From NCBI RefSeq assembly GCF_003725735.1, contig NZ_RJTM01000086.1, forward strand, positions 1 to 64,000: a stretch of 64,000 nt of DNA, read 5' to 3'. Positions 29,920-33,713 of this stretch are shown one piece after another. Each line of letters opens with the position of its first letter. Position 1 is the first letter of the stretch. A program made the translations under genes and the position numbers. This DNA comes from Sinomicrobium pectinilyticum (GTDB taxonomy: Bacteria > Bacteroidota > Bacteroidia > Flavobacteriales > Flavobacteriaceae). Under the pieces are notes generated by a model that saw only the letters and a list, made by a program, of their open reading frames with translations, ran no database searches and was not told where the DNA came from.

Positions 29920-30534
29920 ATGTTTTACCTTGTTATAGATCTTCTCGGTGTGGTATCCTTTGCCATATCGGGCGTTCTGGCGGCTTTGCAGAAAAAACTG
30001 GATATTTTCGGCGTTTTTATTATTGCTTTTGTCACGGCCGTAGGGGGCGGAACTATCCGCGATATCCTCATCGGAACGGAACCTGTCACCTGGCTCCAGG
30101 ACAATGTATATATGTACACAATTATCATAACGGTAATTTTTGCGTTGATCTTTAAGGAAAAGCTGAAGTATCTGCGTACGTCCCTTTTTCTTTTTGATAC
30201 CATAGGAATAGGCCTTTATACATTAGTGGGGATAGAAAAAGGTCTGGCAGTGGAATTGAGTGCCGTAATGTGCGTTGTTCTGGGCACCATTACCGCCTGC
30301 TTCGGAGGGGTCGTCCGCGATATTTTATGTAATGATATCCCTGTGATCTTCCATAGGGAGATCTATGCCACCGCATGTGTAGTGGGGGCAGTGGCTTATT
30401 TTTTGTTGAGGTCACTGCCGGTATCCGATGATGTGGTTTTTATAGCATCCATTCTTATCGTTATTGCCATAAGGTTACTGGCGGTGAAATTTCAACTTGC
30501 CCTTCCGAGTATCTATGGAAAAAACGGGAAGTGA
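29920..30534 (+). CDS. trimeric intracellular cation (TRIC) channel family protein
   Basis: This 204-residue membrane protein of the UPF0126/TRIC family has seven helices in two repeats with GGGTIRDILIG (about 43-53) and GGVVRDILCNDIPVIF (about 129-144). These conserved glycine-arginine-aspartate motifs line the potassium-permeable pore in characterised TRIC channels. It lies 69 bases after the RDD gene and ends in a stem-loop that covers its own stop codon. Confidence 0.9.
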   Translation: MFYLVIDLLGVVSFAISGVLAALQKKLDIFGVFIIAFVTAVGGGTIRDILIGTEPVTWLQDNVYMYTIIITVIFALIFKEKLKYLRTSLFLFDTIGIGLYTLVGIEKGLAVELSAVMCVVLGTITACFGGVVRDILCNDIPVIFHREIYATACVVGAVAYFLLRSLPVSDDVVFIASILIVIAIRLLAVKFQLALPSIYGKNGK

Positions 30535-30632: not shown

Positions 30633-31511
30633 ATGCATCTACATTGTATTGGAATAGGAGAAGACAAACTATATACTCTTGCCCGCGCCCTGCGGGAATG
30701 TGGATATGTGGTAAGTGGCAGTGGTGAGGATATCTCCGCTGCGCAAAAATCCGAAATGGAAGAAGAGGGATGGCCGGTAACCGGTGAGACCCCTTCGGCC
30801 GGACAGATACACACCGGACTGGAAGGAGTAATAACCGGGGCCCATGTAAAACCGGATCACCCGGAATTGCTGAAAGCTGCTGATCTGGAAATAAAAATTT
30901 ATTCCGTTCCGGAATTCTTGTATGAATTTGCCCGCTATAAGACCCGGGTAGTTATAGGAGGCGATTCGGGAAGGGCTGCCATAGCATCCGTAATACTGCA
31001 CGTGCTGGAATATCACAACAGGGAAGTAGACCATGTAATCTCCGGTGAACCGGAGCATACGGCACACCTTACGAAAGACAATGACTTTATACTTCTTACG
31101 GGTAATGACCTGCCTTCGTCTGAAACGGATAAAACCCCGGAATTTCACTGGTACCGGCCCAATATTGCCCTGTTAAGCGGAATGGGTGCGGAAACGGAAA
31201 CCGAAGAACATTTCCGGATTTTTGTAGACCGTATAGTTAAGGGAGGCATTGCAGTCTATAACGAGGAAGATGAAAAACTGAAAACCATAGTGGAAACGTC
31301 CGAAAATCCTATCCGCAAACATCCGTACGGCCGACCGGAATACGAAGAGGAGAACGGGGCTATTATACTGGATACACCGGAAGGACCGATGCCTCTCGAA
31401 CTGCCGGATGAACTGGCATTGCATCACCTTGCCGGCGCAAAATGGATCTGTCAGCATATGGGAGTAGATGAAGACGATTTTTATGAAGCGATCGCTGCAT
31501 ATGGTATGTAA
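30633..31511 (+). CDS. Mur-ligase-like protein (Mpl relative), probably inactive and truncated
   Basis: This 292-residue protein is clearly related to flavobacterial Mpl/MurC-type ligases of about 450 residues: segments GGIAVYNEEDEKLK, ENPIRKHPY and HLAGAKWICQHMGVDEDDFYEAIA are close to what I recall of active homologues. Yet the ATP-binding GSHGKTT is replaced by GDSGRAA (110-116), so the P-loop Lys and Thr are gone. The AWDHINVF region reads MGAETETEEH, and the whole C-terminal domain is missing because a stop follows EAIAAYGM. The frame is otherwise intact and well composed, so it may be a retained pseudoenzyme and not a decaying gene. It is followed by radC. Family comparison is from memory. 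Confidence 0.72.
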   Translation: MHLHCIGIGEDKLYTLARALRECGYVVSGSGEDISAAQKSEMEEEGWPVTGETPSAGQIHTGLEGVITGAHVKPDHPELLKAADLEIKIYSVPEFLYEFARYKTRVVIGGDSGRAAIASVILHVLEYHNREVDHVISGEPEHTAHLTKDNDFILLTGNDLPSSETDKTPEFHWYRPNIALLSGMGAETETEEHFRIFVDRIVKGGIAVYNEEDEKLKTIVETSENPIRKHPYGRPEYEEENGAIILDTPEGPMPLELPDELALHHLAGAKWICQHMGVDEDDFYEAIAAYGM

Positions 31512-31592: not shown

Positions 31593-32288
31593 ATGGAAAA
31601 AACGGCATCCTTTTCCATAAAGAACTGGAAAGAAGATGACAGACCACGAGAAAAGTTATCACAGAAAGGCAGGGAAGTACTCACCGATGCCGAACTCATA
31701 GCCATACTGTTAGGAAGCGGCAATAAAGATGAAAGTGCCGTAGGACTTTCCAAGCGGATATTGTCTGCTGCAAATAACAACCTCAATGAACTGGGGAAAT
31801 TTTCCATAAGACAGCTCACACAGTTCAAAGGAATAGGGGATGCCAAGGCTATTACTATTGCTGCTGCTCTCGAACTGGGCAGGAGACGACGGAAGGAAGA
31901 GGCCCTGGAGCGGATGAAAATAATCAGCAGCAAATCGGTATTTGAACTTATGCAGCCCATAGTGGGAGAACTCCCTCATGAAGAGTTCTGGATCATATAT
32001 CTCAACAATTCCAATAAGGTCATACAATATGTTCAATTGAGCAAAGGAGGGATTACGGGGACATTGGTAGATGTTAGGCTGGTGATGAAACGCGCCCTCG
32101 AACTGGGAGCTACCGCCATAGTACTGGTACATAATCATCCTTCGGGTACTTTGCTGCCGAGTGAAGCAGATAAACAACTCACACAAAAGCTGAAAACAGC
32201 CTCCGAAAGCCTGGATATCAGTGTTCTGGATCATTTGATCATTACGGAAGAAAACTATTTCAGTTTTGCGGACCAGAGAATACTGTGA
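31593..32288 (+). CDS. radC: RadC/JAB-domain DNA-repair-associated protein
   Basis: This 231-residue protein of the RadC family has an N-terminal helix-hairpin-helix (about residues 15-95: LTDAELIAILLGSG and FKGIGDAKAITIAAALELGRR). The C-terminal JAB1/MPN+ metalloprotease-like domain carries HNHPSGTLLPSEAD (H-x-H-P-S-G ... S-x-x-D), so the zinc ligands are intact. The original DNA-repair role of RadC is doubtful; the family function is uncertain. It stands between a Mur-ligase-like gene and a polysaccharide-deacetylase-like gene. Confidence 0.93.
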   Translation: MEKTASFSIKNWKEDDRPREKLSQKGREVLTDAELIAILLGSGNKDESAVGLSKRILSAANNNLNELGKFSIRQLTQFKGIGDAKAITIAAALELGRRRRKEEALERMKIISSKSVFELMQPIVGELPHEEFWIIYLNNSNKVIQYVQLSKGGITGTLVDVRLVMKRALELGATAIVLVHNHPSGTLLPSEADKQLTQKLKTASESLDISVLDHLIITEENYFSFADQRIL

Positions 32289-32402
32289 GCCCGGAATGCG
32301 AGATACCGTTTTTGAAGCATTCGCAGAGAAAAGGTATGTATACGGGCTTGCCGGGTCTGTGGTTGTTGCCATAGCTGTCAAATGCCAACGGAAAGAACAG
32401 GA

Positions 32403-33713
32403 ATGTTATTAGTCTATACACATAAGATCACGCCGAGGGTTACTTATATCATGAAGCACGTTTTTAAGAATATGCTTCAGACAGAAGTTGCCATAACGGC
32501 CAAAGTAGAAGACTTCATTGCACATACGGGACCGAAGATCACCTATACCCGGCATCCGCTGCAAAATGAGTTTTTCGTGCGCAGCCATGATATCCTTTTT
32601 GAACAGGGCATTACCACCCTGGAAATCAATGTGCAATCATGGGAAGATGTCCCCTGCTTTTTCGGCATAGGGGATAAAGGAAGCATCCCTTTTGATATTT
32701 TTGCCGCCAGTTTTTATCTTTTGAGCAGGTACGAGGAATATCTGCCCCACGTAAAAGACGAGCACGGAAGATATCCCGCCAGGGAAAGCCTTGCCTGGGA
32801 GCACGGTTTCCTGGAGGTGCCGGTCATCGATTACTGGGTAAGAAAATTAGCCGTGGCCCTGAGCAAAAGGTTCCCGGAAGAAAATTTCGGGAAAAGGAAA
32901 ACCGGGTATGTTTCGGTTATGGATATTGCTGTGGCCTATGCTTACAGGAAAAAGGGAATTATCCGTACCCTGGCCGGGACATTAATGGATATAACTGCCT
33001 TTAAGATCAACAAGGTGCTGGAAAGATACATGGTGTTACTGGGACTGAAAAAGGACCCTTATGACTATTTTGAGGAGTTGATCGAGGCGCATAAAAAATA
33101 CGGAACGGAAGCCCTCTTTTTCTTCCTGCTGGGTGATTATTCGGCATTTGACAAGAACATACCTTATAATAAGGGATCATTTCGGACGCTGATTAAGTCG
33201 GTAGCTGATTACCATATTGTGTCGCTTATGATGTCGTATTATGCCGTAAATGATGTGGCACGGCTTAAGAAGGAGCGAAAACGCCTGATAAATATTATTA
33301 ACAGGCCGGTGAAAAGGGCAAGGGCCCGCTATAACCGCCTCCTTATACCCGATACCTTTAAAGATGAGGTAGAAGCCGGGTTTAATGAAGATTATACTAT
33401 GGGATATTCCAATTTTCCGGGGTTCCGGGCGGGAACCTGTACCCCTTTTCATTTTTATGATATTAGTTACGAGATACAGCTTCCGTTGAAAATAAATCCG
33501 TTTTGTGTCCAGGATTCTGCCCTGACAGCCTTTGAAAGCGGAGAAAAGGCGATAGCAAAAATGCAGGAACTCTATAGCAGAATACAACAGGTAGGAGGGG
33601 ATTTTATTACCGTATTTTCCAACGAAAGGTGGATAGAAGAAACACAGGTGAATTTACGGAATGTATATATGCGGTGGATAGCATATGTTGCGGAAAATGG
33701 AACGGATGAATAA
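32403..33713 (+). CDS. polysaccharide-deacetylase-like protein, catalytic residues apparently lost
   Basis: This 436-residue protein matches a flavobacterial family annotated as polysaccharide deacetylase: the N-terminus MLLVYTHKITPRVTYI and FDIFAASFYLLSRYEEYLPHVKDEHGRYPA are familiar. In members I recall, metal and catalytic residues lie in IDVDMAY, LHPSY, SRQH and WHNE. Here those stretches read MDIAVAY (173-179), LMMSY (275-279), RARARY (305-310) and FSNE (405-408), so the second Asp and the three His are absent. The frame is intact. ATG 32403 is preferred over 32382. It follows radC by 114 bases and may be a non-catalytic binding protein. Confidence 0.7.
   Translation: MLLVYTHKITPRVTYIMKHVFKNMLQTEVAITAKVEDFIAHTGPKITYTRHPLQNEFFVRSHDILFEQGITTLEINVQSWEDVPCFFGIGDKGSIPFDIFAASFYLLSRYEEYLPHVKDEHGRYPARESLAWEHGFLEVPVIDYWVRKLAVALSKRFPEENFGKRKTGYVSVMDIAVAYAYRKKGIIRTLAGTLMDITAFKINKVLERYMVLLGLKKDPYDYFEELIEAHKKYGTEALFFFLLGDYSAFDKNIPYNKGSFRTLIKSVADYHIVSLMMSYYAVNDVARLKKERKRLINIINRPVKRARARYNRLLIPDTFKDEVEAGFNEDYTMGYSNFPGFRAGTCTPFHFYDISYEIQLPLKINPFCVQDSALTAFESGEKAIAKMQELYSRIQQVGGDFITVFSNERWIEETQVNLRNVYMRWIAYVAENGTDE

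Follow-up and report, generated by a model that had tools for sequence, protein, structure and literature searches.

Mur ligases are textbook three-domain enzymes. A gene of Sinomicrobium pectinilyticum encodes a relative that ends after 292 residues and carries none of the ligase motifs in recognizable form, which raises the question of what such a protein is for and why its frame has stayed open. All coordinates refer to the window, i.e., the whole stretch of 64,000 nucleotides that was analysed. The relevant features are:

29920..30534, + strand: Gly_transporter (PF03458) membrane protein, upstream neighbour in the window genus; context only
30633..31511, + strand: short Mpl/MurC-like protein of 292 aa, lacking ligase motifs; coordinates include the stop
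30633..30938, + strand: domain 1, residues 1-102, in Mur ligases the UDP-MurNAc-binding Rossmann domain; eroded (PF01225)
30939..31508, + strand: domain 2, residues 103-292, Mur ligase middle domain; retained in the short forms read
30960..30980, + strand: former P-loop, GDSGRAA in place of GSHGKTT
31098..31112, + strand: former EGDEY (Mg1 Glu and neighbouring Glu), now TGNDL
31182..31202, + strand: former WDH loop (Mg2 His), shortened, no His
31233..31508, + strand: tail of domain 2 (residues 201-292), where the family's 22 short proteins are most conserved; includes GAKWICQHMGVDEDDFYEAI
31404..31430, + strand: former FGxHNxxN adenine site, now PDELALHHL
31593..32288, + strand: radC, identified by Pfam and NCBIfam; context only

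The preliminary description had seen here an undisrupted Mur-ligase relative beside radC without the P-loop lysine and the C-terminal domain. Reading of the frame (ATG start, no internal stop, 292 codons), the alignment and the RadC models agree with this. The gene is separated from radC by 81 bases, and radC is the downstream neighbour in the window genus and in several related genera, for short and full-length forms alike. In the window genus and at several other loci, radC is adjoined by a gene for a DUF7033 protein (32382-33710 in the window), whose match to the VimE deacetylase model is sub-threshold (136.4 bits, cut-off 440).

The window protein was aligned to 105 full-length relatives; two sequences cut by contig ends (L003, L067) and two short Salegentibacter copies (L051, L069) were left out of that set. 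GGSHGKTT has become GGDSGRAA, EGDEY TGNDL and FGxHNxxN PDELALHH, and the WDH loop is altered and shortened; LAGAKWICQHMGVDEDDFYEAI is retained. The P-loop change, the altered WDH loop and the long ligase-typical stretches of the preliminary description thus stand, and the loop has in addition lost its histidine. The ATP-, Mg- and adenine-binding residues of Mpl/MurC are listed in PMC3060825, and their pairing with alignment columns was made here, by motif. On this basis the P-loop of the window protein has Arg and Ala in place of Lys and Thr and does not conform to GxxGK(T/S), the Mg1 Glu is Thr156, the His of WDH has no counterpart, and the adenine-site His and Asn are Leu261 and His265. In domain 1, GIGG reads GIGE and the UDP-diphosphate Asp31 is Gly; nevertheless PF01225 is found, as the only Pfam match (31.4 bits, cut-off 21). 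The frame ends together with domain 2 at residue 292, where the full-length relatives continue to about 450 aa; the stop had been placed correctly at the expected start of the third domain. Having lost these motifs and the peptide domain, the protein should not be a ligase, as far as its sequence can tell.

An intact ligase elsewhere in the genome was looked for, as the preliminary description had suggested. Searched with the window protein (E <= 10), the window genome gave its own locus as the sole match, and the third domain of the full-length family found no match at E <= 1e-12. PF01225 exceeded its cut-off in four places; one is the window gene, and the frames at the other three are 452-488 aa long. 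It had also been considered that orthologues might keep GSHGKTT and that this copy might be a sequencing artefact. Such orthologues exist, but an artefact or assembly break is ruled out, as all six genomes of the genus have the short form with an open frame.

Ancestry was assessed by curated models and by fold. The best curated family by score was MurC (UDP-N-acetylmuramate--L-alanine ligase; TIGR01082), with 64.4 bits far under the cut-off of 335.1; mpl (TIGR01081) scored 39.4 bits against a cut-off of 388.7, so neither family accepts the protein. A search of PDB sequences retrieved MurC and Mpl with E-values down to 2.1e-9. An AlphaFold2 model of the window protein (pLDDT 85, pTM 0.85) had its best Foldseek match in domains 1 and 2 of Mpl (3eag_A, TM 0.80 by query length, E 5.7e-17), so in predicted models the fold is that of domains 1 and 2 of Mpl/MurC-type ligases. 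Compared with Mpl as described in PMC3060825, the window protein shares this fold but is without P-loop Lys/Thr, Mg1 Glu, Mg2 His, adenine His/Asn and third domain; compared with MurC, fold and losses are the same. The ancestor belongs to the Mpl/MurC-like ligases found in most of the family. The preliminary description had named Mpl; this name is likely but not certain, since the only full-length relative scanned (L109) stays below both curated cut-offs (murC 225 of 335.1 bits, mpl 169 of 388.7 bits), and we call the ancestor Mpl-like. The substrate of that relative (L109:1501-2856) is likewise not certain; it may be a distinct peptide ligase of Bacteroidia. Modelled alone, residues 92-292 reached at best pLDDT 84 and pTM 0.84, the pLDDT of the five models ranging from 66 to 84, and Foldseek found a resemblance to the MurC/Mpl middle domain; the middle domain is predicted to fold on its own.

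Shortened relatives turned out to be recurrent. In a scan of named genomes, nearly all of the best 80 of 572 loci had frames of about 450 aa with GSHGKT(T/S), and among these 80 two Salegentibacter copies (L051, L069) resemble the window gene in ending early, after 307 aa; the P-loop reads GSQGNTT in one of them and GSHGKTT in the other. Of 397 genomes sampled evenly across the family (f1), 376 matched the window protein at 1e-10, and 365 gave a match at 1e-12 when a full-length relative's third domain was the query; each genome had one match except G236, among the matches listed. At least 12 genomes, again among the matches listed, had the first part of the gene and no third domain. Two of these candidates (G308, G020) lay at contig edges and were dropped, and the remaining short-form genomes, at least ten, fall in six genera (g1, g24, g32, g53, g119, g229). 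Four of 15 genomes of the Salegentibacter group g32 carry the short form and 11 the full one; two stages are visible there, with an intact P-loop (GSHGKTT) in G402, which is 100 % identical to L069 of S. flavus, and GSQGNTT in G411. Three sequences of this group (L134, L135, L136) suggest that the third domain was lost first and the P-loop changed afterwards. Genus g119 (17 genomes) has eight short forms of 185-191 aa, which start right before the K-T-R-V-V strand, seven full forms and two genomes without a convincing copy (G418, no match; G417, a weak match to a full-size frame only). Both g24 genomes retain a shortened domain 1.

The phylum was searched with a profile of the 22 short cores of the family; 214 of 395 genomes matched. 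Short frames among the matches listed came from family f2 (G694, 185 aa), family f8 (G473, G602, G563) and family f12 (G758, 309 aa), and f2 and f8 were then searched as whole families. In f2, 141 of 148 genomes matched. Their frames fall into two classes, short (39 frames, 125-223 aa) and full (102 frames, 443-470 aa), and none is of intermediate length. Genus g239 of this family has the short form in 20 of 21 genomes and no match in the remaining one, and genus g481 is mixed (two short, five full). In f8, 127 of 148 genomes matched; there are 19 short frames (182-232 aa, 297 in G473) and two of 279 and 292 aa, a count that leaves out three genomes with frames of 373-386 aa (G814, G863, G807). 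Both family-wide searches gave one match per genome, except for G807 and G824 in f8. A genome with both a full and a short form was not seen among the listed matches of the family sample nor in the f2 and f8 searches.

In total, 83 short forms were read (22 of the family, five from the phylum search, 56 from the f2 and f8 searches), from 30 genera of four families (f1 six, f2 13, f8 ten, f12 one). Among them, G998 is cut by a contig end and G910 has its stop just inside the matched stretch. 67 of the 83 are 217 aa or shorter and are essentially the middle domain alone. Database models recognize them poorly. Outside the window, four of 12 short proteins had a Pfam Mur domain above cut-off (G473, G602, G758, G885) and eight had none, and none of ten was accepted by NCBIfam at cut-off, with weak murC matches in G473, G758, G907 and G850.

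The loss of the catalytic motifs is general. All of the 111 full-length proteins, which were selected by length, contain P-loop, EGDEY, WDH and GxHNxxN. In the 83 short forms, a strict P-loop occurred three times (G402, G885, G808), a looser GxxGK-like stretch six times, EGDE(Y/F) once (as EGDEF), W(D/T)H never and GxHNxxN once. Single catalytic residues survive more often: of the family's 22 short proteins, eight have Lys in the P-loop Lys column, 16 the Mg1 Glu, 12 the second Glu and nine the adenine Asn. What is conserved lies elsewhere. In 82 aligned short cores, Arg105 and Gly205 are invariant where the column is present, Phe283 reaches 94 %, and Lys103 and Gly277 89 %, next to hydrophobic positions; these residues may serve the fold alone. 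Residue conservation in the full-length proteins is 0.91 for the core and 0.84 for the tail; the order is reversed in the 22 short forms, with 0.54 for the core and 0.65 for the tail.

Where loci could be compared, the short gene sits in the place of the full one. In g229 the short form of G387 and the full form of G233 have identical neighbours on both sides, thus the reduction happened in place. The short and full forms of g119 have the upstream neighbour in common. At the nine loci compared in f2 and f8, too, neighbours are common to short and full genes. Remnants of the third domain were searched for within 0.9-1.5 kb 3' of the 22 short genes of the family, where no match was better than E 0.009 and that one lay on the other strand; five loci outside the family gave none at E <= 0.01. 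A tree of 72 middle domains required at fewest seven changes (bootstrap 5-7), of which the starred branches force only three. The tree has several long branches. It joins the short forms of g1, g24 and g229 (91/98) and places G694 of f2 among g119, although g229 includes a full-length species and G694 shares its tail and its neighbours with full-length f2 genes. As both joins contradict the taxonomy, we read them as long-branch attraction; otherwise they could mean fewer losses. Both forms occur within one genus in four genera (g32, g119, g229, g481), and further lineages, at other places in the taxonomy, come from g1, g239 and f8. Five to seven losses are a fair range and the true number is probably higher, on the assumption that no lost domain has been regained and that the groups are natural.

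The reduced genes are under purifying selection. Of 27 short pairs tried with a counting method for dN/dS, 24 were computable; the others were saturated (G000-G002 of the window genus, G256-G028, G886-G930). 23 of the 24 had values of 0.04-0.28 at dS 0.08-2.7, and the remaining pair (G414-G415), nearly identical at dS 0.02, had 0.38. Two computable pairs of the window genus gave 0.11-0.12; with dS at about 1.8 or not computable, dN/dS of this genus is weak evidence. Short pairs of g32 had values of 0.14-0.19, compared to 0.06-0.10 for full-length pairs of this genus and 0.011-0.013 for radC in the same short pairs (0.011-0.052 for g32 and g1 together). Hence the constraint on the short genes is real but weaker than that on the full-length genes and radC. 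Split by part, the short forms of g32 showed 0.23-0.37 in domain 1, 0.12-0.20 in the core and 0.06-0.08 in the tail. One g1 pair had a lower value in the core than in the tail (0.06 and 0.10), and in one g119 pair the two were close (0.27 and 0.17). Domain 1 had the highest value in four of five comparable pairs; in the fifth the core was not computable and its dN was higher. With 0.227 changes per base, which is half the dS of one pair, an open frame survived simulated neutral change (substitutions only) in 17 of 20000 runs; with 0.454 it survived in one of 20000.

Among the alternatives, a residual sensor fares best. The protein would still bind UDP-MurNAc or a nucleotide and report the level of wall precursors, similar to the peptide or nucleotide sensing in wall recycling that the preliminary description had proposed. 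Domain 1 is still present in the window protein, where PF01225 exceeds its cut-off, and in some relatives, and most short-form genomes still have a recycling-type gene. The L,D-carboxypeptidase PF02016 was present in 28 of 28 full-length and in 20 of 27 short-form genomes of a chosen sample (Fisher p 0.004, for genomes that are related, not independent, and few in number), a hint that some short-form lineages are abandoning wall-peptide recycling, in line with the loss of the ligase. Peptide sensing is opposed by the absence of the peptide domain, nucleotide sensing by the broken ATP site, and UDP-MurNAc binding by the changes of Asp31 and of the second loop glycine; domain 1 is also the least constrained part in four of five pairs, and 67 of the 83 short forms have no room for it. 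Because most short forms lack the UDP-binding domain and the window protein has it in eroded form, the sensing idea is unsupported and we regard it as unlikely, while domain 1 may have a residual binding role in the window genus alone.

Slow decay would explain the same proteins as pseudogenes that have lost the ligase function, with the ends deleted first and the middle on its way out. The faster evolution of short forms relative to full-length forms and radC would fit, as would the stages in g32, the absence of domain 1 in many short forms, and the genomes without a convincing copy or match in g119 (two of 17) and g239 (one of 21). Against decay, frames are open in the 83 short proteins (with the provisos for G910 and G998), none of these, all read as search-matched frames, is a frameshifted copy, and dN/dS is 0.04-0.28 in all computable pairs but one. 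Moreover, whole genera retain the short form at great divergence, g239 in all but one genome, the frame lengths in f2 are sharply bimodal, and the end point is identical each time. Decay is strongly disfavoured and in our view very improbable. The claim of the preliminary description that a non-catalytic protein is kept, rather than freshly decaying, is in agreement with the open frame throughout the genus and, as dS in the window genus is saturated, with the values far below 1 in closer short pairs elsewhere.

A split ligase, with the third domain or the ATP site supplied in trans, is disfavoured and has hardly any chance of being correct. The PDB contains folded two-domain chains of Mpl and MurC with about 300 residues (3eag, 5vvw), but a third domain was matched neither in the window genome (E <= 1e-12) nor near the gene, and the P-loop, Mg and adenine residues that the window protein has lost belong to domain 2 itself. 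Conservation as a DNA or RNA element, e.g., a radC promoter, would suit the position just upstream of radC in the window genus and in g32, but is disfavoured as the least credible reading, since the constraint is on amino acids (dN much below dS) and the short forms of g119, f2 and f8 with checked surroundings have no adjoining radC.

We prefer, with a probability of about 0.6, to see the window gene as a pseudoenzyme, whose Mur-ligase middle domain is kept for a non-catalytic, probably protein-binding role. An enzyme homologue has lost its catalytic residues, and the short forms as a group are under purifying selection, with dS saturated in the window genus. The gene would have derived in place from an Mpl/MurC-like UDP-MurNAc:peptide ligase, losing P-loop, both Mg-site motifs, adenine site and peptide-binding domain; of the middle domain, the fold, the entry strand (K-T-R-V-V) and the C-terminal part, made up of a beta-hairpin and two helices, are retained. 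Most likely the middle domain would act as scaffold or regulator by docking on a cytoplasmic partner that is itself conserved, and the full-length ligase of other Bacteroidia probably already has the same docking role. A docking role shared with the enzyme would explain why lineages dropping peptide ligation delete the catalytic ends and keep the middle domain, and also why the two forms were not seen in one genome. A binding role that the enzyme would share is the best explanation for a fold without ATP site, metal site and substrate domain that has replaced the full enzyme. By residue, the most conserved part of the full-length proteins is the core rather than the tail, hence a second role there is one that we only infer. 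The neighbours of the short forms vary by family (radC; an acyltransferase and a NUDIX gene; an exonuclease), thus gene context points to no partner, and PADLOC gave no match to defence systems for three proteins.

Mur middle domains outside classical ligases are known from MurT/GatD and from CapB/PgsB-type proteins; these keep the ATP site, the short forms described here do not. The model of the isolated middle domain matched MurT/GatD (9sq9_A, Foldseek rank 49) and chain 9epc_Q (rank 34, TM 0.70 by query length), which we take to be PAP11. As a subunit of the plastid-encoded RNA polymerase, the plant MurE homologue PAP11 is an example of a Mur ligase fold re-used as peripheral subunit, according to PMC12681378, which also reports that PAP11 retains many important catalytic residues in most streptophytes. 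PAP11 descends from MurE and the window protein from Mpl/MurC, and a common descent of role or partner is not claimed. Among the listed matches in the open-licence PMC literature, no report of a shortened or non-catalytic Mpl/MurC in Bacteroidia was found.

For the Bacteroidia, this may mean that the constant job of the protein is a non-enzymatic role of the middle domain, and that ligation was dispensable and has repeatedly been stripped away, so that in many cases only a free-standing domain of about 170-220 aa is left; we consider the odds of this wider view to be even. If true, the free-standing middle domain is a protein family largely missed by Pfam (8 of 12) and NCBIfam (10 of 10). Where this gene is annotated, its product may not be a route for the recycling of wall peptides. 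The parallel reduction to the same motif-less domain in several families, at its own locus where examined, is a natural experiment on which part of the protein the cell needs once the chemistry is abandoned. A hidden second role of a cell-wall ligase becomes directly testable, as full-length, two-domain and one-domain forms can be swapped.
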